Origin: Sulfurospirillum halorespirans DSM 13726
GTDB lineage: Bacteria > Campylobacterota > Campylobacteria > Campylobacterales > Sulfurospirillaceae
Assembly (NCBI RefSeq): GCF_001723605.1
Contig: NZ_CP017111.1
Location: 1,178,001-1,242,000, forward strand
Reading direction: 5' to 3'
DNA: 64,000 nucleotides
Shown: positions 3,211 to 21,081 of the stretch, piece after piece
Layout: each line of letters opens with the position of its first letter
How positions within the stretch are numbered: the first letter of the stretch is position 1
Program-made: the position numbers and the translations under genes
The notes under the pieces: generated by a model
Seen by the model: the letters and a program-made list of their open reading frames with translations, nothing else
Told to the model about the DNA's origin: nothing
The model's database searches: none

Positions 3211-5361
3211 TTAACTCAGTTTTTTAGCAGGAATGTTGCGGTAAACCAGCACGTTTGAAGGATAGAGTGGATTTTCCAATGGAGGCTCCAAGCGGATGAT
3301 GCGCTGTAGTATATCGAGTTTGTGGCTCTCTTTCGCAAATTCGACTAAGAGTTTGTCGCCTTTGAAAAAGTGCAAATAAGTAACAAACGATTTTTCCCAA
3401 TCAATGGCGTTATCCATCTCTTGGTGCGCATCTTTAAAGTGAGCAATGTAGATTTTTTTCATGATATTGGCACTGTTTTGTTTACATGTAACAATACGCA
3501 CATAAGGCTCAATATGGCTCAAAACGCTCTCATACTCTTTGGCATCAATGAGCGCCATCTGTTCATTAAAAAATCTCTGCTTCATCCCTTCAAGTTCGTT
3601 CACAAGCGCGTAGTGACTTTGCAGCTGATAGTGATCTTGCAGTTGCACCGCTTCAAAGAGCAGATTTTTCGCTACGTACTCCTCTAAAAGAAGCAGGGCT
3701 TTGGAGACCTCTTTGAGTCTATTGGCTTGGTTTTGGTAGGGTCTAAATGGGTGTAAAAGCTCAGCAAGCAAGGACGCTTGATGGTAGTTTTTTGCTTCAA
3801 GCAATTTAAGCGCCTCATTTTGGATACGCTCTCCTATTTGAAGCACTTTTTGGTAGAGTGGTGTGGATTCTAAAAAGGTATTTTGTGCCACGAGACGGAA
3901 ATAAAAGTGGAAGTTTTTCTCTTTAACCGCTGTTTCTGCCATGGTAAACGTGCCTGAGCGTTTGAGCATATTTTCAATGAGTAGCTTCTTCTCTTCCACC
4001 TCTAAAAAAGCATGCAAACTCTCCTTAGCCGCCTCTTTGTTCATCAACGGTTCGCGTGAGAGTAAAATTTGCGCTTGTTGAAGGTTTTTATTCCATAAGG
4101 CTTCAACATGTGCAAAGAGAGAACTTTTTCGTAGCTCTGGTTTACGAGCAACCAGATCGTACGCAGGAGCATAGCTCATGCTTCGCACAAAGCGTTGCAG
4201 TGCGATGAGATGGGGCAGAAGTGTTTCAAGTTCGCTAAATTCGAGTTTGCATTTGGGATGAAACATAAAAGGTTCCGCTTTTTTTTGCGCTTGTTCAATG
4301 TCGCTTCGTGAGAGCAGGTTCATGATGGTCTCTTTCTCTTCTTGCCAGTATTCGTAAATCTTTTTGGTCTCACGGTGCGACATCAAAAAGATGTTTTTTT
4401 GAAAAATAAGACACGCCTCTTTGATCTGCTTAAGGGTAATGTGCGCGATAAATTGCTCTTCAAGTTCACGGTGGTTGTAAAAAATAAGCTCACCCGTTTT
4501 AAATCCCATAATAAAATACTTTTGCGTTCGGCACAGTACCGTAACGCCATGGTAGGGGAGTTTGACTTGGTAGAGACTATCAAGCGTTTTGACATAGACC
4601 GCAAACAGAGTGGACTCACGTGTGCCTATGTAAATAAATTTTTTACTGTGTGAGAGCACCATCGTGGAGGGCCAGATATTTTGATCGAGCTCTCTTTGTT
4701 TCGTTACTTCGCCTTTAAAAAGATCAATGGTGATGATTTTGCCATTTCGGGTAATAGCAATAAGTGTTTGCTCATCCACAAAGAGCATCATTTCAACCAC
4801 AGCATCGATTTTTTGATTAAAAAGCGTGCTAAAACTATTCATTTTATAAACAACCAAGTCGCGTGAAAACGAGGCATATGCTCCAAGATGGTAGGTATCC
4901 GAGACGGCTACTGCGGTGATGGCATCAGAAGATGGTGGCAGTTCTGCTTGGATGGTACCATCTTCTGCGCTGATAATGTAACTGCGCCCGCGCTCATTTC
5001 CCGTGATCAGATAGGTGTCATTTTCACTAAAAGCGGCTTTGGTGATACTTTCAGTTTGGTTGTAGTGAAACGTTGTGATGGGCACAATTTTAGCGTGTGT
5101 GTCGATGACGTGCTCAAGTCCTTGGTCTGCAAAGGCGAGGTAGGCTAGATGTTTCCCTACGGCAAAAGGACGCTTGTAGTAATCAAAAGGGGTGTTTTCA
5201 TGACGGGTTAACAGAGGGGTGCTTTTAATGATTTTAAGTTCATTGAGATCAATTTTGTGTAAATGGCATTGATGGTCGATGATTTGCAGTGTGGATTCAT
5301 CCACCACGCATGCGCTAGAGATCGCGCTATGAAACGTTATCTCTCTTGAACTTGGCAACAT
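3211..5361 (-). CDS. Beta-propeller plus alpha-solenoid protein of unknown function
   Basis: The protein has 716 residues and no signal peptide or membrane segment. Residues about 1-330 show recurring beta-blade patterns of WD40/quinoprotein type (for example YLITGNERGRSYIISAEDG and LIAITRNGKIITIDLFKG). Residues about 340-700 are almost entirely helical, with repeated 35-40 residue units such as LLEAKNYHQASLLAELLHPF, resembling TPR/solenoid repeats. The order propeller-then-solenoid recalls coat-type scaffold proteins, but that is only an architectural likeness. It overlaps the end of the upstream REC-PAS gene by 25 bases, so the two are translationally coupled and presumably act in one signalling pathway. 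The start ATG at 5361 has GAGGAG 8 bases upstream. No family name can be given with confidence. Confidence 0.75.
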   Translation of the reverse strand: MLPSSREITFHSAISSACVVDESTLQIIDHQCHLHKIDLNELKIIKSTPLLTRHENTPFDYYKRPFAVGKHLAYLAFADQGLEHVIDTHAKIVPITTFHYNQTESITKAAFSENDTYLITGNERGRSYIISAEDGTIQAELPPSSDAITAVAVSDTYHLGAYASFSRDLVVYKMNSFSTLFNQKIDAVVEMMLFVDEQTLIAITRNGKIITIDLFKGEVTKQRELDQNIWPSTMVLSHSKKFIYIGTRESTLFAVYVKTLDSLYQVKLPYHGVTVLCRTQKYFIMGFKTGELIFYNHRELEEQFIAHITLKQIKEACLIFQKNIFLMSHRETKKIYEYWQEEKETIMNLLSRSDIEQAQKKAEPFMFHPKCKLEFSELETLLPHLIALQRFVRSMSYAPAYDLVARKPELRKSSLFAHVEALWNKNLQQAQILLSREPLMNKEAAKESLHAFLEVEEKKLLIENMLKRSGTFTMAETAVKEKNFHFYFRLVAQNTFLESTPLYQKVLQIGERIQNEALKLLEAKNYHQASLLAELLHPFRPYQNQANRLKEVSKALLLLEEYVAKNLLFEAVQLQDHYQLQSHYALVNELEGMKQRFFNEQMALIDAKEYESVLSHIEPYVRIVTCKQNSANIMKKIYIAHFKDAHQEMDNAIDWEKSFVTYLHFFKGDKLLVEFAKESHKLDILQRIIRLEPPLENPLYPSNVLVYRNIPAKKLS

Positions 5362-6626
5362 AACTCAAACTCCTCTTGTTTGACGATGCAGATGAGATAG
5401 CGGTTTGGTTCATACGGGCTGATTTTGACCAAAATTTCAAGCATATGCGTGATGGATTTGAGAACGCCTTTAAAGGTAATATCGCCCTCATAGGACCAAT
5501 TGCCTTTGATCGCTTCGATCGAGTCAAAATATTCCATCTCTTCAAAATCCACCACCTCTTTGAGTGTGAGGGCTTCTTGTGTGAGTTTGAGTAGTAAATG
5601 CTCATCACTGTGGTTATTGACAAGTGTTTCAAAGAGTTTATTGTAGGAATGAAATATCATATCATTGCTCATTAGTGCGCACGGGAAGGGAATCTGCTTT
5701 AAAAAAGACGCTTCATTAAGGCTCAGTGCCAAAGAGAGATTTTCACTGTTTTGCTGTTCACGCAGCGCGTGCAGTTTCGTCAAGTCTTGACAAATACTGA
5801 TGAACTCACTGATCTCTCCCTCCGTGTTCACGATAGGTACAACGGTGGTGTAGTGATAAAGCATTCTAAGGTCTTTGGTTTGGTTGATGATAAGTCCTTG
5901 CCATGTCTTTTTAGCTAAAATCGTCTGCCAAAGCTCTTCGTACACCGCTTTTGAGGTGGAGGGATGGCTGATAAGATGGTGCGTTTTCCCAATCAGCTCT
6001 TCTTTGCTGTACCCTGTTGTTTTACAGAAATTTTCATTGACATCGGTAAAAATGCCGTTTTTATCGGTGAGTGAAACCATGGTTGCTTTATCAAGTGCTT
6101 CTTTGTACGCTTTGAGTGTTGCACTTTGTGCACTCAAGGAGTCTGCTTGGAGATGGGTAAAGTGTTTGAGTTTTTCATGGGCAATCTCTAAATCTTGCTT
6201 GTACTGCACCAGTGCTTTTTCGTAGTAAATACGCTCCATAATCGTGTATAAAACCTTTAAAATTTGATCACTCTGCAGAGGTTTTGTAATGTAATATTGA
6301 ATGCCAAGGTTGATCAATTTGATGAGGTATTCGCTCTCATTGTGCGCAGAAGTGACCAAGATAGGCTGTTTGGGATAGCGCTCTTTAATGGCTTCAATCA
6401 TCTCAATCCCATCCATAATGGGCATGCGAATATCGGTAATGACGAGATGATAGTCGTTTTGTGCGAGCTTTTCGAGTCCCTCTTGACCATTGGGCGCTAG
6501 ATCGACACGTTTGAAAATATCACTCAGAAAAAGGCTTACCTCTTCACGCAACGCAAGGTCATCTTCGACATACAATACGTTTAACTCTTTACTCCAAGCG
6601 ATCAGTTGGTCGATCGAATTTTCCAT
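5337..6626 (-). CDS. Response regulator with REC and PAS domains
   Basis: The 429-residue protein carries an N-terminal receiver domain (phosphoacceptor in LVITDIRMP, conserved Thr/Lys regions LVTSAH and YITKPL). A coiled linker of about 40 residues follows, then a PAS domain (FTDVNENFCKTTGYSKEELIGK) with a PAC-like tail. A weaker PAS-like region lies at about 300-420. There is no DNA-binding, cyclase or kinase output, so it probably signals by protein contact, plausibly with the overlapping propeller protein. I start at ATG 6626, which has GGAG 7 bases upstream; the GTG two codons earlier is too close to that site. It is divergent from an OmpR-type regulator. Confidence 0.85.
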   Translation of the reverse strand: MENSIDQLIAWSKELNVLYVEDDLALREEVSLFLSDIFKRVDLAPNGQEGLEKLAQNDYHLVITDIRMPIMDGIEMIEAIKERYPKQPILVTSAHNESEYLIKLINLGIQYYITKPLQSDQILKVLYTIMERIYYEKALVQYKQDLEIAHEKLKHFTHLQADSLSAQSATLKAYKEALDKATMVSLTDKNGIFTDVNENFCKTTGYSKEELIGKTHHLISHPSTSKAVYEELWQTILAKKTWQGLIINQTKDLRMLYHYTTVVPIVNTEGEISEFISICQDLTKLHALREQQNSENLSLALSLNEASFLKQIPFPCALMSNDMIFHSYNKLFETLVNNHSDEHLLLKLTQEALTLKEVVDFEEMEYFDSIEAIKGNWSYEGDITFKGVLKSITHMLEILVKISPYEPNRYLICIVKQEEFELCCQVQER

Positions 6627-6753
6627 AATCACGCTCCCATGGATTTTATCGTTTCATTATATACTCTAAGCGTTGTATTTGGGTTATATTTTTCGCTATA
6701 CTTAGTACAATGTGTGGTAACGCGGGCAAATCTACTCATTAAGGAAAGACACA

Positions 6754-7446
6754 ATGCGAGAAACGTTAACGTTACTCCTTGTCGAAGACGACCTCTCTTT
6801 AAGCGAAGAGTTAGGCATTTTTTTATCGGATTTTTTTGATACGATCGATTCGTGTGGCTCTGCTGAAGATGCGTATGAAAAATACCTGAAAACTTCGTAT
6901 GACCTTGTCATTACAGACATCCAACTTCCTCACCAAAATGGTCTTGGCTTGGTTGAAAAGATCAAGAAAAAAAATCCTTCGCAAATGGTTATTGTCATCT
7001 CGGCGTACAAAGAGGTTGACTATTTTCTCAAAAGCATCAACCTTGGCATCTACAGTTTTCTCACCAAACCGTTTGACTCACAACTGCTGATTAACACGAT
7101 GATCAAAGCAACCACGCAGTTAGAACAGCAAAAAGGCAAAATGGATAGTTCACTCGTTATTCTGCATCCGGGCATCTCGTTTGATCTTAAAACCAAAACC
7201 TTACATGTAAACCAAATGCCACAAGAATTAACCGCCAAAGAGGAGCTTTTACTGTTTGTTTTGGTGAAAAATGCCAACGCATTTGTTCGTAATGAACAGC
7301 TCTCTCAAGAAATATGGCAGAGCGATGAGGTCAATAACTCAACGCTTCGAGCCCTTGTGAAACGCGTGCGAGACAAGCTGGGGTATGATGAGTGCATCAT
7401 CAACCTCAAACATCGAGGCTATAAACTCTCTACGCATCCTTCATAG
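6754..7446 (+). CDS. OmpR/PhoB-type response regulator
   Basis: The 230-residue regulator has a receiver domain with acidic pocket (LLVEDD), phosphoacceptor in LVITDIQLP and lysine in LTKPFD. A C-terminal winged-helix DNA-binding domain covers about residues 140-228 (LTAKEELLLFVLVKNANAFV, STLRALVKRVRDKLG, HRGYKLS). It should bind DNA as a phosphorylated dimer. No paired kinase is directly attached, but the kinases at 9156-12551 are the nearest candidates. Its 3' end overlaps the convergent REC-EAL gene by 17 bases. The TTACATGTAA palindrome at 7201 encodes LHVN here. Confidence 0.92.
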   Translation: MRETLTLLLVEDDLSLSEELGIFLSDFFDTIDSCGSAEDAYEKYLKTSYDLVITDIQLPHQNGLGLVEKIKKKNPSQMVIVISAYKEVDYFLKSINLGIYSFLTKPFDSQLLINTMIKATTQLEQQKGKMDSSLVILHPGISFDLKTKTLHVNQMPQELTAKEELLLFVLVKNANAFVRNEQLSQEIWQSDEVNNSTLRALVKRVRDKLGYDECIINLKHRGYKLSTHPS

Positions 7447-9166
7447 GAAGTTGCAGTGGAGCGTTGAAAAAGTAGCCTTGTGAGTAGTCAATTCCCAATT
7501 TTTTGACCGTCTCAAACTCTGCTTCGTTGGAGACATACTCTGCAATAACCTGCATTCCGATCTTTTTTGCCATGGACGCGATGGACTCGACAATGTCTTG
7601 ATTGCGAAGGTTGGTGTCAATGCCTTTGATGAATTGCCCATCGATTTTAAGAAAATCCACACCAACGTTTTCCAAGCGATTAAAATTAGAGCGATCGCTT
7701 CCAAAATCATCAAGGGCAAGTAGATAGCCCATCTTCTTGAGCACATGCAAGTTTTGAAGCGGTCCACGGTTAATATCGCTGATGATGATGTCTTCTAAGA
7801 TCTCAAATGTGACCAAGGCTGGGTCGATGCGGTGGAGTTTTTGTTTGGTCTCTAAAAAGTCGATAAAGGTTTGATTGAGCAGATCTTCATTGGTAATGTT
7901 CAGCGAAAAGGCGACGTTTTGACCTGCAAAAATTTTAAACGATTTGTTGATCATGATGCGGGTAAGATTGCTCATCAGTCCGCTGCGTCTGGCAGCTTCA
8001 AGAAAATGTGCAGGTGAGATGATCTCGCCATCGTCTTCAATACGCGCTAAACATTCGTACTTGACCACGCTCAAACTTTGGTTATCAACGATGGGTTGAA
8101 AGTAGGGCACGACGCGGTCTTCTTCGAGGGCTAGACGAAACTTTTGTATCCAAGAGGTTTCGATTTTGGCACGTTTGAGAAAAACATCTTGGGTGTTGTA
8201 GATGTTGTATTGGTTCGGCACACCTCGCATACGCGCTTCACGAAGGGCAATACGTGCATTGGGAAGCAGTGAAGAGGGTGCATTCGCCGTTGCAATGCCG
8301 CAGGAGAGCGTAATATAGATAGGTTTTTCTTCGTATTCTCCAATGGGTGTTTCTCTGAAAAAGGCTTGGATTTGGATGGCGACAAATTCGGGATTGATGA
8401 TTTGTGGATCAAAGATAATGACAAATTCATCGGAATTGTAGCGGTAGAGATGCACCTCTTTGGAGAGGTTGTATTGTAAATATTCGCCGACTTTAAACAG
8501 CGCTTCATCGGCAAACTCAGCCCCATAGGTTTGGTTGATAAAGCTGAAATTATCGATGTTGTAGAGCATAATGGTGAGTTGATGATTTTGCGGAAAGTTG
8601 TCTAAAAAATTGTAAAGCATGGTCGCATTTTGAAGTTTGGTGACCGTGTCTATGGTCAAAAAGTCATGCACGATTTGAGAATTTTGCGCCAGTTGCTCAC
8701 TCTGTTCTTCGAGTTTTTGCTCTAATGTGGCTTGGAGTGAAGCTTTCTCAAGGCGCTCTTTGACAAGCGATGCCACTTTGTAGAGTGTTTCGATGAGCTG
8801 ATCAAAGTCGATTGGTTTTAAGATGTAACCACTCACATTGTTGCGAATGCTCTCTAAAAAATACTCGGTTTCATTGTGCGCCGAAACCACGATAATGGGC
8901 TGTTTGGGGTTGATTGATTGAACGTGTTTAATGAGATCCATGCCGTTCATGTGCGGCATATTGAGATCTGTGATGAGAATGTCGTACCCATACGGGTGTT
9001 CTTTGTAGATTTTAAGCGCTTCCGCACCATCGCTTGCTTCATCGATTTCACTGAAAAGATCGTGCAACAATGAGACGGTATTTTCACGCAGTATCAGGTC
9101 ATCTTCAGCATATAAAACACGCAATTTTGAGGTGAGATTGACCAGATCGGTCAGACTAATTTGCAC
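7430..9166 (-). CDS. REC - degenerate GGDEF - EAL protein (probable c-di-GMP phosphodiesterase)
   Basis: A receiver domain (phosphoacceptor in ILITDLNMP), coiled linker, GGDEF-fold domain and EAL domain are seen in that order over 578 residues. The cyclase signature reads YNSDEF instead of GGDEF, so diguanylate cyclase activity is unlikely. The EAL domain has ECL for EAL but keeps the leading Glu, SLNIT, FEILED, LDDFGSD, LKIDG, AEYVS and SQGYF, so phosphodiesterase activity is plausible. I place the start at GTG 9166 because GGAGAA sits 7 bases upstream. That gives an 11-base overlap with the kinase gene stop and implies translational coupling. It is the last gene of the FIST/kinase operon and a paralogue of the protein at 45430-47211. 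Confidence 0.88.
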   Translation of the reverse strand: MQISLTDLVNLTSKLRVLYAEDDLILRENTVSLLHDLFSEIDEASDGAEALKIYKEHPYGYDILITDLNMPHMNGMDLIKHVQSINPKQPIIVVSAHNETEYFLESIRNNVSGYILKPIDFDQLIETLYKVASLVKERLEKASLQATLEQKLEEQSEQLAQNSQIVHDFLTIDTVTKLQNATMLYNFLDNFPQNHQLTIMLYNIDNFSFINQTYGAEFADEALFKVGEYLQYNLSKEVHLYRYNSDEFVIIFDPQIINPEFVAIQIQAFFRETPIGEYEEKPIYITLSCGIATANAPSSLLPNARIALREARMRGVPNQYNIYNTQDVFLKRAKIETSWIQKFRLALEEDRVVPYFQPIVDNQSLSVVKYECLARIEDDGEIISPAHFLEAARRSGLMSNLTRIMINKSFKIFAGQNVAFSLNITNEDLLNQTFIDFLETKQKLHRIDPALVTFEILEDIIISDINRGPLQNLHVLKKMGYLLALDDFGSDRSNFNRLENVGVDFLKIDGQFIKGIDTNLRNQDIVESIASMAKKIGMQVIAEYVSNEAEFETVKKLGIDYSQGYFFNAPLQLPMKDA

Positions 9167-11330
9167 GGTGTTCTCCACGAATCTTAATAATAAATTTAGC
9201 GCCATGCAATTGGTTTTCTACATGTAAAGAGCCATGGCAATGCTCTTGTACAATGGTTTTAGACATATACAGTCCAAGTCCCGTGCCATTACGCTCTGCT
9301 TTGGTCGAAAAATAGGGGTCAAAAATTTTAGGAAGAATGGCATCGGGGATGCCTCCTGCATTATCCTCTATCTCGATGACAAAAAAGGCGTTATCTTCGT
9401 ACGCATTGATCCATATAGTACCATTTTCTAGCTTTTTTTCAAGGATGGCATCTTGCGCATTTTTCAAAATATTGATGAGCACTTGCATCATTTGCGTCTC
9501 ATAGGTGATGAGTGAATTGGAGGACGTATTGTTTACATGTAACGTGATTTGATGCACCGATAAACTCTTTCCAATGAGCCCAAGTGCACGGTCGATAATC
9601 CTCTGGAGTGAGCTTTGTTCTTGCTGTTGTTCGGGTCTGAAAAAGTTTTTAAAATCATCAATAGTCGTTGTTAAAAACTGGATATAGGTCTCAATTTTAC
9701 CAATGGCTCCTAGTAAAAATTCCTCTTGATCGGCTCTTCCTTGTTCGGTTTTAAGATCAAACTTTTTCAGGCTTTGTTTGAGCTTGATGCTAGCCGTCAC
9801 GGCTGAAATGGAGCCAAGTGGCTGACGCCATTGATGTGCGATCATGCTGATCATCTCCCCCATTTGCGCTAAACGTGATTGATACAGCATCATTTTTTGC
9901 GTCTCCATGTGCTCAACCACACCCTCTTTGATCCTCTTATCCATCGAGTCGTACAGCTCTTGGAGCTCTTGACTCATCGCGGTGAAATTGTCCAGAAGCG
10001 TGTTGATCTCGACAATGTTGGAGCGATTGATTTTAGTCACTGTGAGTTTGTCTTTAAAGGTTTTGGTCGCTTCAATGAGCTCTTGCAAAGGGTTGAGGAT
10101 ATGGTTTGAAAATGTTTTGGCACGCGCTAAAAGGATGCCAAGAAAAATGAGGTAAAAAAGTACCATAAAGCCTAGTGCAAGGTAGCCGATAACGTTTGTT
10201 TTCGCTTTGAGTTGGGTGCTGTTTTTAAGCAAAGAGTCTTTGTCGAGCAAAAGGACAAATCTCCAGCGTGTCTGCGCAATGGTATTTTGCGTGATGATAA
10301 AATCACCCTGAGTGTGTTGCAGCTCTAGTATGGCTCTGTTTTCTTGAATCATACGAGAAAGCGCCATTGCAAGAGGGTTTGTGGTGTTGGTGAAAAGATT
10401 GAAATCGCGAGGCTTCGTGATGGTCGCTTCAATGGGCGCATCATAGGTGTGTGTTTTGAGCTCTTTAATCCCAAGATGCGCTTCCAAAGCTTCGCTCATC
10501 GCAAGAATATTGCCGTGTTCATCGACGAGCATGCTCATGGAGCGGTAAGGCAGTTGAAGCGAAAGCATGGTTTTTATGAGATGTTCTATCGTCACATCAA
10601 TGCCCACAACGCCTTCTAAAAAATCACCTTTGTACACAGGCGCAATCGCACTGATCATCCATCCAGCCCCTGCTGGGTCTAAGTAAGCATCGGTCCAGAC
10701 CACATTTTTGTCTGGATTGTGCGCCGCATCGGCAAGGTAGTAAAAATTATACGTGGGAATGGCGATGTCATGGGCGTATTGAGCTAGCGCATTGGGCATG
10801 AAAGGGCAGAGCCTGTTCATGGAGTCATAGCTGTTAAAATAGACCTGCGCGATGTTGGCATTGCTCTGCAAGATGGCTGTGTAAAAGGGGTCGAGCGTCT
10901 CCGTGGCGATGGCTTTTTCCAAGCGATTTGGGCTCTGTTTTTGCGCGTTTGAGAAAAAAAGTGAACAGCTCTCTGGTGTTTTTTGTGTATTGAAGAGAAC
11001 GCCAGAGTTTGTTTGTGCGTAAGTGCTATCTTTGGTGTTTACATGTAAAGGGTTAAAGGTGGCAAAAAAGTGCTCATGCTCTTTTTGAAAAAGCCGTGTT
11101 AAGCTTGAGAGCGTTTTAAATTCGTTATTGACGATGGTGGCTGAGCGGTTGCTAAGCTCTTTAATATGCACTTTGCTCTCTTCAATCAGCGCCGTTTTCG
11201 TGGTTGCATTGACATACGCATTGCTCCAAAAATAAGCCACTAAAAGCATCATTTCTATGAGTAAAAGCGGGAAAATGATGGAGCGTAAGTACTCTTTTTT
11301 GACCAAGCGTGCAAGGGTGTTTTGAACCAT
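9156..11330 (-). CDS. Membrane histidine kinase with dCache sensor
   Basis: The 724-residue kinase begins with a membrane helix (about 17-38), then a large periplasmic double-cache region (about 40-365, including NVVWTDAYLDPAGAGWMISA and GVVGIDVTIEHL typical of dCache_1). A second membrane helix lies near 375-400, followed by a HAMP-like linker. The H-box has His at about 499 (MIAHQWRQPLGSISAV), and the HATPase carries N, G1 (DNAGGIP) and G2 (GTGLGLYMSK) boxes. dCache sensors bind small molecules such as amino or organic acids in the periplasm. It follows the next kinase with a 3-base gap and overlaps the REC-EAL gene, so a phosphorelay within the operon is likely. Two TTACATGTAA copies lie in frame. 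Confidence 0.93.
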   Translation of the reverse strand: MVQNTLARLVKKEYLRSIIFPLLLIEMMLLVAYFWSNAYVNATTKTALIEESKVHIKELSNRSATIVNNEFKTLSSLTRLFQKEHEHFFATFNPLHVNTKDSTYAQTNSGVLFNTQKTPESCSLFFSNAQKQSPNRLEKAIATETLDPFYTAILQSNANIAQVYFNSYDSMNRLCPFMPNALAQYAHDIAIPTYNFYYLADAAHNPDKNVVWTDAYLDPAGAGWMISAIAPVYKGDFLEGVVGIDVTIEHLIKTMLSLQLPYRSMSMLVDEHGNILAMSEALEAHLGIKELKTHTYDAPIEATITKPRDFNLFTNTTNPLAMALSRMIQENRAILELQHTQGDFIITQNTIAQTRWRFVLLLDKDSLLKNSTQLKAKTNVIGYLALGFMVLFYLIFLGILLARAKTFSNHILNPLQELIEATKTFKDKLTVTKINRSNIVEINTLLDNFTAMSQELQELYDSMDKRIKEGVVEHMETQKMMLYQSRLAQMGEMISMIAHQWRQPLGSISAVTASIKLKQSLKKFDLKTEQGRADQEEFLLGAIGKIETYIQFLTTTIDDFKNFFRPEQQQEQSSLQRIIDRALGLIGKSLSVHQITLHVNNTSSNSLITYETQMMQVLINILKNAQDAILEKKLENGTIWINAYEDNAFFVIEIEDNAGGIPDAILPKIFDPYFSTKAERNGTGLGLYMSKTIVQEHCHGSLHVENQLHGAKFIIKIRGEHRAN

Positions 11331-11333
11331 AGG

Positions 11334-12551
11334 TTAACCTTCTTGAAGTTTGATGGTAAATTTGGCACCCATTGAAGTATTGGAAGCGAGGATTTCTCCG
11401 CCACAATGCTCTTCAATAATTGTTTTTGACATGTAAAGCCCAAGCCCTGTGCCATTTTTTTCCGATTTGGTCGAAAAATAGGGCTCAAAAATGTGAGGCA
11501 ATACCGATTCAGGAATGCCTCCAGCGTTATCTTCGATGCTGATGATTTGCCAACTGCCTTCATTTTCAATCGTAATCAGAATCTGTGCGCGCTTAATTTC
11601 ACGCTCTTTGATGACATCTTCTGCATTTTTTAAAATGTTCAAAATGACTTGCGTCACTTCGTTGGCATAGGTAAAAAGCTCGTGGTTTGAGCGCGTTTCA
11701 ACGTTGATGGTGATGCCGTTGATCTCCAGCGCTTTGCCGATGATCTCCAGTGTTCGGTTCACCAGTTGCGCAAGGGTCACACTCTCTTTTTGTTTATTCG
11801 GTTTGAAGAAGTTTCGAAAATCATCGATGGTATGGGTGAGAAACTGCACATACGATTCGATTTTGCTCATCGCTTCGCCTAAAAAAAGCTTGCTCGTTTC
11901 AATGCCCTCAGGCGTGGTGTAGTCAAAACGGTTGAGCGAAGTTTTGAGTTTGATGGACGCCGCAACCGCGGAGATGGAGCCTAGAGGTTGGCGCCATTGA
12001 TGCGCGATCATGCTGATCATCTCTCCCATTTGTGCCAAGCGAGATTGCTGCAAAATGTGCTGATCTTTTTCTCTGTTTTTAAGTACTTCTTCTTCGACGC
12101 GACGCTCCAGTGTTTGGTTGATTTCGATGAGTTCGAGATGGTTTTTACACGCATGGACGGCATTTTCCAGTTTGGATTCAAACGAAGCGATGATGGCTTT
12201 GATGAGTTCGATTTCTGTCTCAGAAGCTTGAAATATAAGCCCAATCCAATCCTCTCCTACCTTTACATGTAAAAGATGTTTGCCACTGGACTGATCAAAA
12301 TAAATGGATTGCAGTGGCGCCGCAAAAGAGGGGGTTACAAAGAGCGCTTGATACGCCTTTTTGCCGTTGAGGCAGAGCTGTTTGTACGTGTGTGTTTTGG
12401 TGTCATACGTCCAATAAATAGAGGCAAGGGCGCCCATTTTTCGTGAAAAAACCTTTAAAAAATGCTCCATCATCTCTCGAAGTTGAAGCGACGTTCCTAT
12501 GGCACTGACACATTCAAAGGTGATGAGAAGTTGTTCATTGAGTTGTTGCAT
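11334..12551 (-). CDS. Soluble histidine kinase with GAF-like N-terminus
   Basis: The 405-residue kinase lacks membrane segments. An N-terminal region of about 130 residues has GAF-like features, then comes a coiled coil (LELIEINQTLERRVEEEVLKNRE). The H-box (MIAHQWRQPLGSISAV, His about 184) is nearly identical to that of the following kinase, and the HATPase has DNAGGIP and GTGLGLYMSK. It probably senses a cytoplasmic cue. ATG 12551 is chosen over TTG 12554 because AGGAG is 6 bases upstream of the ATG. It sits between the FIST gene and the dCache kinase in one minus-strand operon. Confidence 0.9.
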   Translation of the reverse strand: MQQLNEQLLITFECVSAIGTSLQLREMMEHFLKVFSRKMGALASIYWTYDTKTHTYKQLCLNGKKAYQALFVTPSFAAPLQSIYFDQSSGKHLLHVKVGEDWIGLIFQASETEIELIKAIIASFESKLENAVHACKNHLELIEINQTLERRVEEEVLKNREKDQHILQQSRLAQMGEMISMIAHQWRQPLGSISAVAASIKLKTSLNRFDYTTPEGIETSKLFLGEAMSKIESYVQFLTHTIDDFRNFFKPNKQKESVTLAQLVNRTLEIIGKALEINGITINVETRSNHELFTYANEVTQVILNILKNAEDVIKEREIKRAQILITIENEGSWQIISIEDNAGGIPESVLPHIFEPYFSTKSEKNGTGLGLYMSKTIIEEHCGGEILASNTSMGAKFTIKLQEG

Positions 12552-12652
12552 CAAAATCTCCTAGGATACCCATTGAATAGAAGGATTATGTGGATGATTC
12601 GCTAAGCTGTAAGATACCATAAAGAAGCTGATACACACAATAATGATGACGT

Positions 12653-13735
12653 TTAGAGAGTGCCGACAACGCAGGTGTTGTTGTAAAACTCAATGCCTTC
12701 TTGGTTGGCATTGGCAATTTCACCCAGACTTAAAACGCCCCAAAGAACGGTTTGGGAAGGGTAAACGCTTGCAATCGCCCGTACTTCTTTGGGAAAAGCG
12801 GTATCGAGTAAGAAAAAGCGCGAAATACAATCCACCACCAATGCCGACTGGATGGTCTTTTCTTCCATATTGGCACGTGAAATTTCAGCCGCTTCTTTGG
12901 CTGCTTCAATGAGCTCTCCTTCTTCGCCTTTGAGAATGGACAAAACAGAATTCACATCGAGTTTCCCCACCAAAACAATGGTATTGCCATCGGTTGTCAC
13001 AGGTTCTCGTACGAGAAAATCTTTGTTGTAACGCACAATGCCAAGAGGGTAGCGCTGCGAAATTTTGAAAAAGGGTGTGGTGTCAAAACGCAAGTCGCTG
13101 TCTTTTTCAACCGCTTCTTTGTAGAGCGTAAATGCGTCTTTGTAGTTGATCTTTTCCAAAACATTGCCTTTGCACGACGTAGCGATAAACGGGCCTAACA
13201 GAGGTTTCCACCCATGTTTTACACCTACACCAATGGTATGCGGTGAGGTGATGATAATCGCCGCATTCATGTAAAAACGGTACGTATCAAAAATAACAGG
13301 CTCTTGAATGAGATTGGTTTTGCCCGCTCCGCCTCCGATAAGTTTTGTTTTCTCTGGTAAAAGTGAATAAAACTCTTCTAAAAAGTCATCAATTTGCGTT
13401 GAAAAACCATCGACAATGGCAAAGATAGCGCTGGTGTTAGGGTCGGTGCGAAGTTGTTGAGGATTGTCCATATCGATGATCTGCATCGAAGACGTTGCGC
13501 TAAGTTTTGCGGCAATAATGCCTTGCGCATAGGTTTTGCCTTTAAAAATAACCCTTGGGAAAATAGCACCACTGAACGTCACGCCCTCTTTTTGCAAGAT
13601 CTCCAAAAAAGGAGTCTCCTCCGCAATCAGCAGGACATACGTGCCTTTTTTTAGCTTTACATGTAAGTCCTCAATGCGCTCAAAAAAAGAGATACATTCA
13701 AACATCGCGTGCTCCAAAAGTTTTCTTAGAGGCAT
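12653..13735 (-). CDS. FIST-domain sensory protein
   Basis: The 360-residue protein has FIST N (about 30-200, with IFAIVDGFSTQIDDFLEEFYSL and KLIGGGAGKT) and FIST C (about 215-350, with CISRFFLL and VLWGVLSLGEI) regions. FIST domains are predicted small-ligand sensors linked to signal transduction. Being first in an operon with two histidine kinases and a REC-EAL effector, it is likely an input module for them. I start at ATG 13735, which has GGAG 7 bases upstream; the TTG four codons earlier overlaps that site. No membrane segment is present. Confidence 0.85.
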   Translation of the reverse strand: MPLRKLLEHAMFECISFFERIEDLHVKLKKGTYVLLIAEETPFLEILQKEGVTFSGAIFPRVIFKGKTYAQGIIAAKLSATSSMQIIDMDNPQQLRTDPNTSAIFAIVDGFSTQIDDFLEEFYSLLPEKTKLIGGGAGKTNLIQEPVIFDTYRFYMNAAIIITSPHTIGVGVKHGWKPLLGPFIATSCKGNVLEKINYKDAFTLYKEAVEKDSDLRFDTTPFFKISQRYPLGIVRYNKDFLVREPVTTDGNTIVLVGKLDVNSVLSILKGEEGELIEAAKEAAEISRANMEEKTIQSALVVDCISRFFLLDTAFPKEVRAIASVYPSQTVLWGVLSLGEIANANQEGIEFYNNTCVVGTL

Positions 13736-13786
13736 TGTATACTCCAAGTGTTATAAACGCGTTGCAAAATCTTTACATGTAAATAT

Positions 13787-15899: not shown

Positions 15900-16514
15900 T
15901 TATAAAAAGCTATCAATTGTCGTTGTGATTTTTTCAAATGAAATGGATTCACTTGCAAGAGCAAGAGGATGAATCATCCCCGATTGGTCTAAAATTAAGT
16001 TTGGAAAGCGTGAAATCCCTATTTTTTTGGTTGTATTAAATTCAACATCAGTGCTTATAATATTAAAAATATCAACAAAAGCATCGTAGGATAGATGATG
16101 CGCTTCGCAGATATTTTTGTAAAACTCTATATGGGTAGTATCTCCACCTTGTTCAAAAAACTTTTCTTGAATCGATGTGAAAAAGTGAAGTAATGTATGA
16201 TCATTGTGATCTTTTTGAAGCAACATTATCCTCGCTGCAGCGACCGCACGACACGCAGGTTCTGTATCATTTTTGACGACAGAAGTCCTAAAGATGCTTT
16301 TTTTGAAACTCGTTTGTTTCAAATACCCCATGAGAATTGAAAAAGGAATATTTTTATCAGAGCAATAGTGTTGTATTTTATGCGTGATGGATCTGTTTAT
16401 CCAGCAAGAAGAGGACAATGGATTTCCTATGAAGACGATTATTGTGTTCTTATGGGTAATGTGTGTGTCATAGCTTGTGCGGGTGCAAGATGTCGTGTTG
16501 CGCTCTGTAAACAT
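15900..16514 (-). CDS. DsbA/FrnE-like thioredoxin-fold protein lacking the first active-site Cys
   Basis: The 204 residues follow the layout of the cytoplasmic DsbA-like (FrnE-type) family. An N-terminal strand leads into IGNPLSSSCWI, where relatives have PLCSWCW. A helical insert with CRAVAAARI follows, and a C-terminal strand pair contains the cis-Pro region GISRFPNLIL. The nucleophilic Cys of CxxC is replaced by Ser while the second Cys stays, so normal dithiol chemistry is unlikely. The start has AAGGAG 5 bases upstream. It lies downstream of an AraC regulator on the same strand. No signal peptide is apparent. The region is AT-rich and free of the TTACATGTAA palindrome. Confidence 0.65.
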   Translation of the reverse strand: MFTERNTTSCTRTSYDTHITHKNTIIVFIGNPLSSSCWINRSITHKIQHYCSDKNIPFSILMGYLKQTSFKKSIFRTSVVKNDTEPACRAVAAARIMLLQKDHNDHTLLHFFTSIQEKFFEQGGDTTHIEFYKNICEAHHLSYDAFVDIFNIISTDVEFNTTKKIGISRFPNLILDQSGMIHPLALASESISFEKITTTIDSFL

Positions 16515-16620
16515 TGCTACTCCTTGTTTATAAATAATAAAACAATAGTCTATAGTAGCATGAGCCAGAGTGAAAATAAAGTACGAGCAGTCGTATTTCT
16601 GTACAAAAATACGGAATTAT

Positions 16621-17550
16621 CTAAAGTTTTATATTAAGTCTGTATTGTTTTAGGCTCATTTTGTAGTATTGTCGAAAAAAGCGAGAACAGGTGGTTTGGG
16701 TATTGAAGTTGAGTGTAGATGTTATCTGCTTGATGCTGTAATCTGTATACGTCAGAAGATAAACCATCTCTTTAATGATTCGTACATGTATAAAGTAAAG
16801 TGCGCTTTTTTGTGTTGTTACTTTGACCGTTTCACTTAAATGCTTAGAGGTAATATTGAGCATATCGGCATACCCTTTGACACTTTTTTGGGTTATAAAG
16901 TGTTTTTCAATGAGTTCTAAATAATGGCTAGTAATCTGCTCAGCTCTTGTATGCGCTTGTACGTTTACGTGTTGGTTGAGTAGTTTGCCACGCTTTAAAA
17001 TATAGAGCATTTCTAAGATGTAGAGTCTAACCATCTCCTTATAATCGCTATTTTCACTTTTCGTTTCAAGATGAATATGTTCATACAATGTTTTTACTTG
17101 TGTGAACATATTGGAAGGAAGCAGTATAGGATTGATACTGTGTTCATGAAAGGTTATAAGGTCTTGAATAGCTTTATTGTCATGTTGATGTGAGAATAGA
17201 ACGTTTTTATTGAACAGGAGGATATAGTATTCTGATTTTTCAGCATACGTCTCAAACGAAAAGATGGAACCGGGGAGAATTAATTGCAGAGAGCTTTTAG
17301 AAATGTCAAATGTATATTGATTAACACTGTTTTTAGCTTTCCCATCAAGGCATAAAAATAATGCAAAAAAATCAAACCGTATCGGAAAACCTTTTTTCCC
17401 TTGAATATCATTATGCAACATAACAATATCTTTAGGAGAAAAATTGTCTGCTAGAACATCCATGCCAAATGTAGGATTTTTTTTGTGAAAACCTTCATAG
17501 ACTTTAAGGACTTGCTCCATTGTTAGTAATGAATGGGTCGAGGTATTCAT
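16621..17550 (-). CDS. AraC-family transcriptional regulator
   Basis: The 309-residue regulator has an N-terminal cupin-like ligand domain (about 30-170) and a C-terminal AraC DNA-binding domain with two helix-turn-helix units (about 205-305; KGYADMLNITSKHLSETVK and SIKQITSTLNFNTQTTCSRF). The second unit ends in the usual FRQYYKMSLKQYR pattern. It is the gene before the DsbA-like protein on the same strand, about 106 bases apart, which may be its target. Codon use is AT-rich compared with the window average, hinting at acquired DNA. Confidence 0.9.
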   Translation of the reverse strand: MNTSTHSLLTMEQVLKVYEGFHKKNPTFGMDVLADNFSPKDIVMLHNDIQGKKGFPIRFDFFALFLCLDGKAKNSVNQYTFDISKSSLQLILPGSIFSFETYAEKSEYYILLFNKNVLFSHQHDNKAIQDLITFHEHSINPILLPSNMFTQVKTLYEHIHLETKSENSDYKEMVRLYILEMLYILKRGKLLNQHVNVQAHTRAEQITSHYLELIEKHFITQKSVKGYADMLNITSKHLSETVKVTTQKSALYFIHVRIIKEMVYLLTYTDYSIKQITSTLNFNTQTTCSRFFRQYYKMSLKQYRLNIKL

Positions 17551-17675
17551 CTTTTTTATCCAACTCTTTTGATTGAAACTAACATGATTTTAATAGAAAA
17601 TACTTTAAATGTTTGTATGTTGAAAAAGTTTCTGGAAGTTTAAAGGATGAATGATGCTTTGATTGAAGAAAGAAC

Positions 17676-17689
17676 GGTGGATGGGGATA
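17676..17689. other. Left attachment site (attL) of the tRNA-Gln island
   Basis: GGTGGATGGGGATA is identical to 20907-20920, the 3' end of tRNA-Gln including its encoded CCA. The likeness continues leftward with a few differences (TTGATT-GAAGAAAGAA against TTGATTCGAAGAAAAAA). This is the duplicated tRNA end expected when a tyrosine integrase inserts at a tRNA gene. It lies inside the 17551-17879 gap. I see no gene in the rest of that gap, only AT-rich sequence. Confidence 0.75.
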
Positions 17690-17879
17690 CAACACTCAGA
17701 AATTTATAAGTTTGAAGCTAAATCTTCAAACCAAAGCAGTCAAAATTCAGAGGTGGTTTAAGTTTCAATTCGCAACTTTTTTACATTAAAAACTGACGAC
17801 TTCTGCGCTTCGCTTGACATTCAATAGTAAAGATAGAAAAAATTGTCAAGAACTAATTTAAAAGCCTTTGTTAAATTTA

Positions 17880-18074
17880 TTAAAGATTTGTGAATTTAGA
17901 TCGAGACTTTATTTGCTTTTTCTTGATAGTAGCGTTAGCAACTTTTTGTAAAAAAGCCTTTTTCCCTTGGAGTTTCAAGTCATTCATAGGCTGATAATCG
18001 TTCGTATCAATACTATCTTCTAAGGTTTTAAAAAGAGTTATTTCTTCTTTTGAATAGAGGCTTTTATTTGGCAT
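17880..18074 (-). pseudogene. Probable truncated antitoxin (CopG-type N-terminal part only)
   Basis: The ORF has 64 residues from ATG 18074, or 68 from 18086. The pattern SKEEITLFKTLEDSIDTNDY and the following ANATIKKKQIKSR resembles the N-terminal half of a common small antitoxin family. In that family a ribbon-helix-helix DNA-binding region normally follows the basic KK stretch. Here the frame ends a few residues later, so that region is missing. No matching toxin lies next to it. I read it as a remnant inside the integrated island; a short intact protein of unknown role is the alternative. Confidence 0.4.
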
Positions 18075-18121
18075 AGTGAAATCCATGTAAAGTAAAAAAA
18101 GAGCTTTGCATGGCTCTAAAA

Positions 18122-18535
18122 TTATTGAATATATTGATTGTAGAAATCTGATGAAGAGATAGTATCAATATCAGAGTTTTGAAAGCCTTTTTTATCATTT
18201 GTAATAATAAGCCTTGCTTTCTTTTCCTTTGCACAAAAATACTGAACAGCATCTTCAAAATCTTTAAAATCAGAGTTTATAGCATCTCTTAATATTTTTT
18301 CATTTACTGATACAATTGTATATTCATCTAAAAAAGTATTAATATATTCTTTGAGTTTTTTAGGCTCAATTCCTTTTCTAGCAAAATAATGTATATTAAC
18401 TATTGATATGTCATTGAGAATAATTTCAAAATTTTTTTCACTAAGAAAAAATAGAACACTTTTTGCAATTCCATTGTCTCTATTTAAAATAGAATCTAAA
18501 AAAATATTAGTATCAATATAGATTTTTGCATTCAT
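18122..18535 (-). CDS. PIN-domain toxin (VapC-like RNase)
   Basis: The 137-residue PIN-domain protein shows the acidic residues expected for metal-dependent RNase activity: Asp in YIDTNIFLD at the N-terminus, the DFKDFEDAVQY segment near residue 90, and TNDKKGF near 113. Antitoxin and toxin are adjacent with a 4-base gap, antitoxin first, the standard type II order. It lies inside the tRNA-Gln island, where it would help keep the island in the chromosome. The coding sequence is strongly AT-rich compared with core genes. Confidence 0.8.
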   Translation of the reverse strand: MNAKIYIDTNIFLDSILNRDNGIAKSVLFFLSEKNFEIILNDISIVNIHYFARKGIEPKKLKEYINTFLDEYTIVSVNEKILRDAINSDFKDFEDAVQYFCAKEKKARLIITNDKKGFQNSDIDTISSSDFYNQYIQ

Positions 18536-18539
18536 GCTT

Positions 18540-18842
18540 TTAATTAGCCTTACTACTAAAATATTCTTCTTTAGCTTGGTTAATACCTAAATTCATTTTA
18601 GATGGGTCAAGTAAGCTATGAAGTCCTTCCATTGCATTTTTTAGTTTTTGAGCCTTAGTAGTATTTTTAGATTTCGCACTTCTAAGGAGTTCATCTAAAT
18701 CACTTGAAATTGCTTGATGTTTTCTAAAATTATTTACACTATTTTGTGATATTTCTACTTTGAAATGAAATTTTTTCATTGCTAAATCCAAGAATTCTTG
18801 AATTTTACTTTTGTCATCAGAGTCAATGTATATTGTTGTCAT
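18540..18842 (-). CDS. Putative antitoxin for the PIN-domain toxin
   Basis: The 100-residue protein begins MTTIYIDSDDKSKIQEFLDLA, a short beta strand plus helix. Its C-terminus, GINQAKEEYFSSKAN, is a plausible toxin-binding tail. Role is inferred from position: it directly precedes the PIN gene with a 4-base gap on the same strand. I see no clear ribbon-helix-helix or AbrB fold by eye, so the DNA-binding class is unknown. Confidence 0.6.
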   Translation of the reverse strand: MTTIYIDSDDKSKIQEFLDLAMKKFHFKVEISQNSVNNFRKHQAISSDLDELLRSAKSKNTTKAQKLKNAMEGLHSLLDPSKMNLGINQAKEEYFSSKAN

Positions 18843-19034
18843 AGATAACCCTTTTTATAATATAAACTAAGCTCATTTTAACGAAATTATCACAAAAAGC
18901 AAATTTCCTTTTTGAATTACTTGAATCAGTGAAAAATTAATGTTTATAGCTTATTTGTAGTTCTGTATTATAACAACTAATTACTGAAAAATCTGATTTA
19001 TCAATGTGTATAAAAATTTTGATTTATTGTCTGA

Positions 19035-19214
19035 ATTATTATAAAAAAGTTTCCATCTGAAAAAAAAGGTGATTTTTCAAGGCTTTCAACTGCACGTAAA
19101 ATAAAACGAGATCTCCTAAAATCTCTTGAACGTGGGTATTTTGTTCGAATTATAAAAGAGTTAGTACCTCAAAAAGTTTTTAAGCAATCAACAATCTATG
19201 GCTTTGGAGCATAA
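19035..19214 (+). pseudogene. Open-frame remnant fused upstream of the methyltransferase gene
   Basis: A 59-codon open frame runs from after the TGA at 19032 to TAA at 19212-19214 without any ATG, GTG or TTG start. The peptide is basic and helical (DFSRLSTARKIKRDLLKSLE, then YFVRIIKELVPQKVFKQSTI). It overlaps the first in-frame ATG of the methyltransferase, and its stop lies 1 base before the preferred methyltransferase start. It looks like the 3' end of a former partner gene, perhaps DNA-binding, that lost its 5' part. The rest of the gap 18843-19034 is AT-rich with no gene seen. Confidence 0.4.
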
Positions 19215-19215
19215 A

Positions 19216-19995
19216 ATGCAATTAATTCTTTCCCTATGTTCAGGCATCGGCTTACTAGATCGTGCATTCAAAGAAGCAGGTTTCTGCGTTGTCAGTGAAG
19301 GTGACATCATTCTGGGCAATCATCATGATATTCGTTTATTCAAAGGTATAAAAGGGAAAATTTATGGCGTTATCGGTGGAACTCCTTGCCCTGATTTTTC
19401 TCCTCTCAAACGTGACCGCCCTGTATTAAAAGATTTATACGGTTATGAAATGCTTTTGGAATTTAAAAGGATAGTTTTAGAGTGTGACCCCTCCTGGTTT
19501 CTTTTAGAAAATGTTGCAGGTGTACCTAACGTTAAAATAGACGGATATTCTCATCAACGAATTGACATTAACCAATCTTGGTATGAAAATGTGACTCGGC
19601 TGCGTCATATTCAATTCGGTCATAAAGAGAATAAATACTTACAAATTGAAAGAAAAAATGTGACTGATCAATCACAGAAATTAGAATCATGTGCCTTAGC
19701 TAATGATAGCCGTTCCTTTAGAGAGCTTTGCAGATTGCAAGGCTTAGAAGATGACTTCGACTTAAAAAGTTTTAACGTGCAAGGTAAAAAACGTGCAGTT
19801 GGTAATGGTGTACCTCTTTCAATCGGTCGAGTATTAGCAAAAGCTGTGACTGATCTGGATGAAAAAATCTGTGTATGTGGTTGTGGTCGTATTGTGACCC
19901 ATCGAGGTGGTTATTATGACTATTCATGCCGTAAACGAGCCCAAAGAAATAAAAATAAATTTGCTGTGACTGATCAACAACAAATAGGTGCATAA
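19216..19995 (+). CDS. Orphan C5-cytosine DNA methyltransferase
   Basis: The 259-residue enzyme has motif I (LSLCSGIGLLDRAF), motif IV with the catalytic Cys (GGTPCPDFS), motif VI (LLENVAG), a short target region, motif IX-like FRELCRLQGL and motif X (GNGVPLSIG). A C-terminal Cys-rich tail (CVCGCGRIVTHRGGYYDYSC) resembles a small zinc ribbon. It methylates C5 of cytosine in an unknown sequence. No restriction enzyme is next to it. Short length and the island setting fit phage-type protective methyltransferases. I prefer ATG 19216, with GGAG 6 bases upstream, over 19198. The integrase start follows its stop directly. Confidence 0.9.
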   Translation: MQLILSLCSGIGLLDRAFKEAGFCVVSEGDIILGNHHDIRLFKGIKGKIYGVIGGTPCPDFSPLKRDRPVLKDLYGYEMLLEFKRIVLECDPSWFLLENVAGVPNVKIDGYSHQRIDINQSWYENVTRLRHIQFGHKENKYLQIERKNVTDQSQKLESCALANDSRSFRELCRLQGLEDDFDLKSFNVQGKKRAVGNGVPLSIGRVLAKAVTDLDEKICVCGCGRIVTHRGGYYDYSCRKRAQRNKNKFAVTDQQQIGA

Positions 19996-20883
19996 ATGAC
20001 ACTTCAAAACTTCTATGATGAATTTTTTGAGTTAACTGTACCCATTCAATCCGAAAAGACGGTGTTAACAAAAAGAGCTTTTTTCAAAAATCGAATCTTG
20101 CCTTCTTTGGGTGAAATGGAAATGGGAGAGGTTAAATACATTCATATTCAAAAATTTGTCAATGATCTTTTGGGAGTAGGGTTAAAACCAAAAACAGTTA
20201 AAAATATCATTAGTGGTCTTTCTACCTTGTATCGTTATGCAGAAAAACATGAGATTGTAATGGCTAATCCTTGCCAGTATGCAGAGCTCCCACAATTCGA
20301 TAATAAAAGAGATTTTGAATATTCTAAAGAGGTTCAGGTCGAATTCGTTAAATCTGCGTTGACGTATCGTGAACCAATGATGCGAGATATTTTCCTATTT
20401 TTGTTCCATGGTCGAAGAAAAGGAGAGGTCTTAAATCTTACTTGGGATATGGTGGACTTTGATCAAAGGCTCTATAAAATCCCTGCAATGATCAACAAGG
20501 CACGTAAAAATATGAGCTATAAAATGACTGATATTCTCTATGATCGTCTTATGTTCCATTATCTGCATGAGTGTATTAATCAGAATACACGCTTTCCAAG
20601 AGGTTATGTGTTCGTAAATCCTGAAACACGTACAAAATATTCCTATTTGAAAAAAGCATGGGAGCGGTTTTTAGAGTCCAATGATCTTCCCAAAATTAGA
20701 CTTCATGACATACGCCATCTAATAGGTACGTATTCGATCAATATTTTAGAGTTACCGATTGAAAAAATAAGTCATACTCTTGGTCATACGAACGTAGCAA
20801 CGACAGAGAAATACGTTACGATAAAACCTGAAACGAGTAAACAAGTGATTGATAAGATCTTTGCGAGTGTTGAAAGTGTTTGA
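19996..20883 (+). CDS. Tyrosine recombinase / integrase of the tRNA-Gln island
   Basis: The 295-residue integrase has an N-terminal SAM-like arm-binding domain (about 1-100) and a C-terminal catalytic domain. The catalytic series is visible: Arg in FHGRRKGEVLNL, LHDIRHLIGTYSIN (His-x-x-Arg), LGHTNVATTEKY with the final His and the nucleophilic Tyr. Its ATG abuts the methyltransferase stop with no gap, so the two are expressed together. The gene ends 25 bases before tRNA-Gln, whose 3' end is duplicated at 17676; this identifies the attachment site. Confidence 0.93.
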   Translation: MTLQNFYDEFFELTVPIQSEKTVLTKRAFFKNRILPSLGEMEMGEVKYIHIQKFVNDLLGVGLKPKTVKNIISGLSTLYRYAEKHEIVMANPCQYAELPQFDNKRDFEYSKEVQVEFVKSALTYREPMMRDIFLFLFHGRRKGEVLNLTWDMVDFDQRLYKIPAMINKARKNMSYKMTDILYDRLMFHYLHECINQNTRFPRGYVFVNPETRTKYSYLKKAWERFLESNDLPKIRLHDIRHLIGTYSINILELPIEKISHTLGHTNVATTEKYVTIKPETSKQVIDKIFASVESV

Positions 20884-20906
20884 AAAGTTTGATTCGAAGA
20901 AAAAAG

Positions 20907-20920
20907 GGTGGATGGGGATA
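20907..20920. other. Right attachment site (attR) within the tRNA-Gln 3' end
   Basis: GGTGGATGGGGATA repeats the sequence at 17676-17689 exactly. It covers the CCA, discriminator and acceptor strand of tRNA-Gln, so insertion leaves the tRNA gene intact on the integrase side. Confidence 0.75.
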
Positions 20921-20983
20921 TAGGATTCGAACCTATGAATACCACGACCAAAACGTGGTGCCTTACCGCTTGGCGAATCCCCA
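20909..20983 (-). tRNA. tRNA-Gln (anticodon TTG)
   Basis: The minus strand folds into a full cloverleaf. The 7-bp acceptor (TGGGGAT / ATCCCCA) has CCA encoded at 20909-20911. The anticodon stem CCACG/CGTGG carries the loop TTTTGGT (anticodon TTG), and the T-arm contains GGTTCGAATCC. The discriminator reads T. It carries the island attachment site at its 3' end. It lies 22 bases downstream of the fMet gene on the same strand. Confidence 0.95.
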
Positions 20984-21005
20984 AGAAGAACATCATTTTA
21001 AAAAC

Positions 21006-21081
<76 letters not shown>

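Follow-up and report, generated by a model that had tools for sequence, protein, structure and literature searches.

A propeller-solenoid protein coupled to a REC-PAS regulator in Sulfurospirillum halorespirans

Described systems and the layout of the locus

Proteins with an N-terminal 6-8-bladed beta-propeller and a C-terminal stack of helix pairs are said to have membrane-coat architecture, which in 2010 had been reported only from eukaryotes and from bacteria of the Planctomycetes-Verrucomicrobia-Chlamydiae (PVC) group (PMC2799638). We have analysed a stretch of 64,000 nucleotides from Sulfurospirillum halorespirans DSM 13726, a member of the Campylobacterota (contig NZ_CP017111.1, positions 1,178,001 to 1,242,000; hereafter the window), in which the gene of a propeller-solenoid protein, here called PROP, overlaps the gene of a response regulator made of a receiver (REC), a PAS domain (PAS1) and a C-terminal tail. 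Like the membrane-coat proteins (clathrin, Sec31, the Nups and the MC proteins of Gemmata; PMC2799638), PROP has a propeller that passes directly into a helix-pair stack, and its modelled layout has the domain order by which that architecture was defined. At 716 amino acids (aa) it is shorter than the quoted Gemmata MC proteins, which exceed 1,000 aa (PMC2799638). Unlike the membrane-coat proteins, PROP is tied to a two-component regulator and belongs to a phylum outside the PVC group, and no sequence relation was found for its solenoid. The likeness of PROP to eukaryotic coats is architectural only, and we claim no membership beyond the layout.

Another protein that resembles PROP is the prokaryotic WD40 protein PkwA (5yzv), annotated as a serine/threonine kinase (PMC6113231, PMC5587647). 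Both contain a WD40 propeller of seven blades, and the two superpose with Z 28.6 over 278 residues, but the rest of PROP is a conserved solenoid that falls into no known family. Among signalling systems, NosP-NahK-NarR of Legionella consists of a FIST sensor that reports nitric oxide (NO), a kinase and a REC-GGDEF-EAL protein (PMC8846402). The operon in the window likewise holds a FIST-FIST_C protein, a kinase and a REC-GGDEF-EAL protein in one cluster, but it has a second kinase and, in addition, an OmpR-type regulator and the REC-PAS-tail/PROP arm. The third comparison concerns PAS1, which among solved structures is nearest to the flavin PAS domains of NifL, Aer and MmoS. These PAS domains bind flavin adenine dinucleotide (FAD), and NifL exerts its effect through binding to a dedicated partner protein. 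The regulator of the window differs from NifL, Aer and MmoS in carrying a receiver in front and a PAS-like tail behind, and its partner is scaffold-like, in contrast to NifA or a receptor.

Predicted structures of PROP and its regulator

The AlphaFold2 model of PROP, built from 13 relatives, has a mean predicted local distance difference test score (pLDDT) of 88.8 and a predicted TM-score (pTM) of 0.52. It contains exactly 28 strands (7 x 4) within residues 5-296 and about 22 helices that run uninterrupted across residues 298-687. The model thus confidently predicts a closed WD40-type propeller of seven blades and, after it, a helical solenoid without a break, which bears out the original prediction of an N-terminal beta-propeller and long C-terminal helical repeats; neither an open propeller nor a broken solenoid was seen in the model. 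The propeller superposes on the WD40 structures of Sec12, PkwA and WDR61 with Z 28-30 and a root-mean-square deviation of ~2.8 over about 280-294 residues (VIA-align), and the VIA-align matches span the propeller only. When compared with solved structures, the PROP family profile found WD40 chains (best E 6.7e-59), its best matches being WD40 propellers only, and phmmer with the whole protein found no match there. Pfam gave weak WD40-type propeller matches, and neither NCBIfam nor PHROGs gave a name. In Foldseek an IFT-A train subunit was aligned over nearly the whole chain (E 2.5e-14), with a TM-score of only 0.34, and axonemal chains were also aligned over nearly the whole protein at low TM-scores. 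The match to the IFT-A subunit is carried by the propeller, and the generic WD40 propeller dominates the fold matches of PROP.

Repeats within the solenoid were seen by profile self-comparison (segment-to-segment hhalign), and these, together with the helix register of the model, divide it into four compound repeats, each ~85 aa long, that begin near residues 313, 397, 484 and 568. By sequence, the solenoid alone retrieved nothing convincing from the PDB. Assignment to TPR or clathrin repeats was rejected, each Pfam family being found in at most 1 of 30 members, and a designed protein with a weak PDB match (E 5e-4) was not accepted as a homologue. The original prediction had likened the layout to that of eukaryotic coat scaffolds; the domain order agrees, but no entry of Pfam or the PDB is convincingly related to the solenoid in sequence. 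With a pTM of 0.52, the relative placement and angle of propeller and solenoid are uncertain. Past the last helix the confidence of the model is low; the exception is a hydrophobic stretch near residues 701-710, which is conserved. The extreme C-terminus (window positions 3214-3300) carries a short hydrophobic motif (such as SNVLV, NILIYK or DSLLSI) in nearly all relatives, which may be a docking peptide.

In the regulator, Pfam recognised Response_reg (1.6e-25) and PAS (5.5e-14). Its frame extends to a GTG at 6632, but the ATG at 6626, preceded at 7 nt by GGGAG, was preferred because the GTG is too close to that sequence. The structure model (pLDDT 84, pTM 0.40) has a long helix between REC and PAS1. 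The active site of REC is conserved in the alignment (E21, D22, D23, the phospho-acceptor D65, T92 and K115). PAS1 matched the solved structures 3ewk (1.6e-25), 9qq6 (3.6e-19), 2gj3 (1.1e-17) and 8dik (1.2e-17), and its residues N197, W242 and N248 are nearly invariant, N197 and N248 being lost in one locus (L101). We infer from its sequence that PAS1 is an FAD-type redox PAS that would bind FAD. The regulator has no DNA-binding or enzymatic domain. It had been described as lacking an output domain, which was wrong, since a conserved C-terminal tail follows the PAS domain. The tail has the topology bb-aaaa-bbb in the model, and its fold is predicted to be PAS-like from that topology only, because the VIA-align list of the regulator was filled by CheY-like receivers. 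The tail drew no Pfam match in 21 of 22 members, and the single match, in the remaining member, was implausible.

The overlap of the PROP and regulator genes that had been noted at the outset amounts to 25 bp, with a Shine-Dalgarno-like GAGGAG inside the regulator gene just before the PROP start codon, and it was kept in every intact pair examined across the genus.

Linkage of the tail to PROP genes

PROP was found in 55 of 100 relatives. Many of these proteins share 20-27% identity yet are full-length (~710 aa) and colinear, and since such homologues occur in many families PROP is not a chance open reading frame. In the same 100 genomes a profile of the tail alone gave 28 matches at E < 1e-10, all of which adjoin a PROP gene, including one in a family (f20) outside the profile. 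Among 397 evenly drawn genomes, 27 tail matches were found at 1e-8; 24 adjoin PROP, two lie at a contig end, and the last (in G436) lies ~5 kb from a PROP gene that has a REC-PAS-tail neighbour of its own. Of the matches that come from genomes outside the profile, 8 of 11 adjoin PROP. By our own estimate the chance of adjacency is ~0.1% per match, given one or two PROPs per ~2,200 genes. A rebuilt tail profile added one further tail-PROP pair (G304), as well as a second, weaker match in G436 that has no PROP nearby. Tail and PROP are neighbours in 11 families (f1, f5, f6, f7, f9, f11, f14, f17, f18 (divergent), f20 and f21).

The modules that precede the tail vary, with REC-PAS-tail, REC-tail (f17, f6), PAS-tail and membrane CxxCH sensor-PAS-tail forms. 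At five loci (L041, L042, L047, L066, L067) the gene directly upstream of PROP encodes a PAS protein that carries the same tail but lacks a receiver. Because the tail is constant while REC and PAS come and go, it is likely the output or docking domain toward PROP. In one genome (G028) just 103 aa of the tail are left beside an intact PROP, either as a remnant or as a minimal partner. The membrane CxxCH sensor-PAS-tail form was found in L041, with a weak Tll0287-like match, and in L127. The genes at L157:6706-8250 and L041:5363-6928 encode this form, its CxxCH being a c-type heme motif. It is possible that such a protein is a heme or redox receptor acting on PROP.

Within the genus the two genes come and go together. 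Of 24 genomes, 17 have both the regulator and PROP and six have neither, none has one only, and in one (G011) the region runs into a contig end. In G004 both were lost in one clean deletion, which lies at a short repeat and spares the other genes of the operon. The deletion scar (L088, about 7500-7600) holds a short in-frame remnant of the first codons of the regulator and the last ~20 codons of PROP. The EAL gene is present in 23 of the 24 genomes and the FIST gene in 22, and thus REC-PAS-tail/PROP is a detachable arm of the system. Reciprocal linkage, joint presence and absence and the kept overlap together give strong support to the proposed coupling of PROP to the REC-PAS protein.

The features of the locus are collected in the table. 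On the minus strand the order of genes is FIST-FIST_C, histidine kinase, dCache-like histidine kinase, REC-GGDEF-EAL, REC-PAS-tail and PROP, the OmpR-type gene being divergent. In the REC-GGDEF-EAL protein the GGDEF motif is degenerate (NSDEF) and the EAL signatures are present; it is probably a phosphodiesterase only, because NSDEF replaces GGDEF while the EAL signatures look intact. The FIST protein, the two kinases and the REC-GGDEF-EAL protein are candidates for a NosP-type system with which Sulfurospirillum would sense NO/heme. A FIST-HK-EAL-OmpR-REC-PAS-tail-PROP order (HK, histidine kinase) recurs in family f11 (L160, with two FIST genes and one kinase), a similar gene order that includes PROP was found in L101, and in f17 (L158, L162) REC-tail/PROP pairs lie among kinases. 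Elsewhere in the window, positions 15900-21081 are a low-GC stretch (32% at 16-20 kb) adjoining tRNA-Gln, with genes that by sequence are AraC-like, PIN-like, DNA methyltransferase-like and tyrosine-recombinase-like, and are probably a small genomic island.

Table. Positions in the window of the genes, domains and other features discussed.
Feature	Position	Strand	Basis
Propeller-solenoid protein (PROP), 716 aa	3211..5361	-	Open reading frame, family profile and relatives, structure model
Alpha-solenoid, PROP residues 298-687	3301..4470	-	Helices in model, segment-to-segment hhalign
Seven-bladed WD40-type beta-propeller, PROP residues 5-296	4474..5349	-	28 strands, VIA-align, profile matches
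Overlap of PROP and regulator genes, 25 bp	5337..5361	-	Sequence
Response regulator REC-PAS-tail, 429 aa from ATG 6626	5337..6626	-	Pfam, structure model
C-terminal PAS-like tail (predicted), about residues 299-429	5340..5732	-	Model topology; linkage to PROP
PAS1 domain	5784..6080	-	Closest solved relatives MmoS, NifL, Aer PAS domains
REC domain	6237..6584	-	Alignment; CheY-like fold, Z ~20-21
Divergent intergenic region between regulator and OmpR-type response regulator genes	6627..6753	.	Genus-conserved blocks (intergenic alignment)
OmpR-type response regulator (REC and Trans_reg_C)	6754..7446	+	Pfam
REC-GGDEF-EAL protein	7430..9205	-	Domain search, sequence
Membrane histidine kinase with dCache-like sensor	9156..11330	-	Domain search
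Second histidine kinase, no membrane sensor seen	11334..12554	-	Domain search
FIST-FIST_C protein (family of NosP sensors)	12653..13747	-	Pfam FIST 5.2e-19, FIST_C 4.9e-20

The spread of PROP was followed in genomes of the Campylobacterota. A profile match (cut-off 1e-10) was present in 101 of 298 evenly drawn genomes of >=90% completeness, with up to several copies per genome, so that about a third of the sampled genomes carry PROP. Counting families with a long match, PROP reaches at least 17 family-level groups. A scan of named genomes with one PROP alignment retrieved close relatives only. No plasmid-borne copies were found. In a tree of the family, one clade adjoins housekeeping genes (ilvA-PROP-ilvIH, polA and others), and a second comprises the signalling-associated copies together with others that adjoin housekeeping genes; the association with the tail requires at least five changes on this tree. 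One genome (G063) has a tandem pair of PROP genes after gltX (L044:7436-11735) and five PROP matches in all. In open-licence literature on WD40 or propeller proteins of Sulfurospirillum and Campylobacterota nothing was found that describes the family, and one paper on Sulfurospirillum regulation does not mention WD40.

A probable regulated scaffold and the alternatives

The reading we favor, at a rough probability of 0.58, is that of a regulator/scaffold module, in which a partner controlled by phosphorylation and redox state docks by its tail on the cytosolic scaffold PROP. PROP would be the propeller-solenoid scaffold and the adjoining regulator its dedicated switch. The variable front end would set the state of the tail, the version in the window having a phosphorylatable receiver and an FAD-type redox PAS; the kinases of the operon would phosphorylate D65, PAS1 would add redox information, and the long signalling helix would transmit the state to the tail, which on docking may alter the assembly of PROP or its binding of cargo. 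A FIST/histidine-kinase system, whose input may be NO or heme, would then have three output arms: the EAL protein, the OmpR-type transcription factor and, as the third, this module. Control of the scaffold by phosphorylation, as first proposed, may with good reason be inferred because the REC active site is conserved and the operon contains two histidine kinases. A wider version, in which the PAS-like docking domain, unnamed in Pfam, serves response regulators and redox sensors across the Campylobacterota as an output with coat-type propeller-solenoid scaffolds as its single target, phosphorylation and redox state deciding between assembly and release of the scaffold, is more tentative and falls somewhat short of an even chance.

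Several observations weigh against a regulated scaffold of this kind. Most PROP copies, including the large ilvA/polA clade, have no adjoining tail partner, and PROP therefore also works without one or with a distant one. The pTM is low in both models (0.52 for PROP, 0.40 for the regulator), which leaves the placement of the domains uncertain. PROP is also frameshifted in two single-contig relatives (G008, G015), and is therefore either dispensable or misread there through sequencing errors. The splits, at L074:6010-8159 and L081:6254-8409, stem from one deletion and two insertions of a single base within runs rich in purines or in A, and may reflect decay, phase variation or sequencing error.

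It was also considered that PROP might, as a platform, bring together the kinases, the response regulators and the EAL protein that the operon encodes, tuning signalling instead of being an output, with the tail merely anchoring the regulator. PROP-tail pairs do lie inside two-component clusters of several families (L153, L158, L160, L162), and the three receivers encoded in the window plainly resemble one another. However, the PAS-tail/PROP pairs of f5, f7 and f21 have no kinases directly beside them, most PROPs lie outside signalling loci, and five genomes (G004, G005, G014, G016, G022) have kept the EAL and FIST genes although they lack PROP, which leaves this explanation unlikely, at about one chance in five.

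Still less probable, though worth bearing in mind, is that the regulator is an adaptor or antagonist, whose tail in one state hands PROP to a protease or sequesters it, in the manner of RssB or of partner switching, so that the level of PROP would be controlled and not its shape. A single-target regulator that lacks DNA-binding and enzymatic domains and has a fixed partner, as in NifL-type pairs, would suit such a role; the sequences hold no specific evidence of a link to a protease, however, and the conserved gene overlap suggests that both proteins are made in a coupled manner.

These bacteria are not known to have internal membranes, and this counts against a coat-like PROP that would shape or line inner membranes under control of the regulator. 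Such a role has been proposed for the propeller-solenoid proteins of planctomycetes, with which PROP shares the domain order of membrane-coat architecture (PMC2799638), and Foldseek aligned nearly the whole chain to the IFT-A train subunit. Yet that alignment, with its TM-score of only 0.34, is carried by the propeller, and nothing in the sequence of the solenoid links it to coat proteins, making a coat function improbable. Finally, many PROP genes do lie among housekeeping genes, but incidental operon packing with neither a physical nor a functional link is largely refuted by the reciprocal search, the linkage of tail and PROP in 11 families with differing surroundings and their joint loss leaving it hardly any room.

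The regulated scaffold, as read from these genes and models, points to an uncharacterised mechanism in which phosphorylation or redox state would switch a bacterial scaffold, and the tail is probably a docking domain that had not been described. Since the family occurs in about a third of the sampled Campylobacterota, which are not known for internal compartments, the propeller-solenoid layout is common in this phylum and becomes a weaker marker of compartmentalisation. With PROP as its single genetic partner, the tail of the regulator also offers a pair that can be tested directly, and through it an entry to an uncharacterised two-component output beside cyclic di-GMP control.

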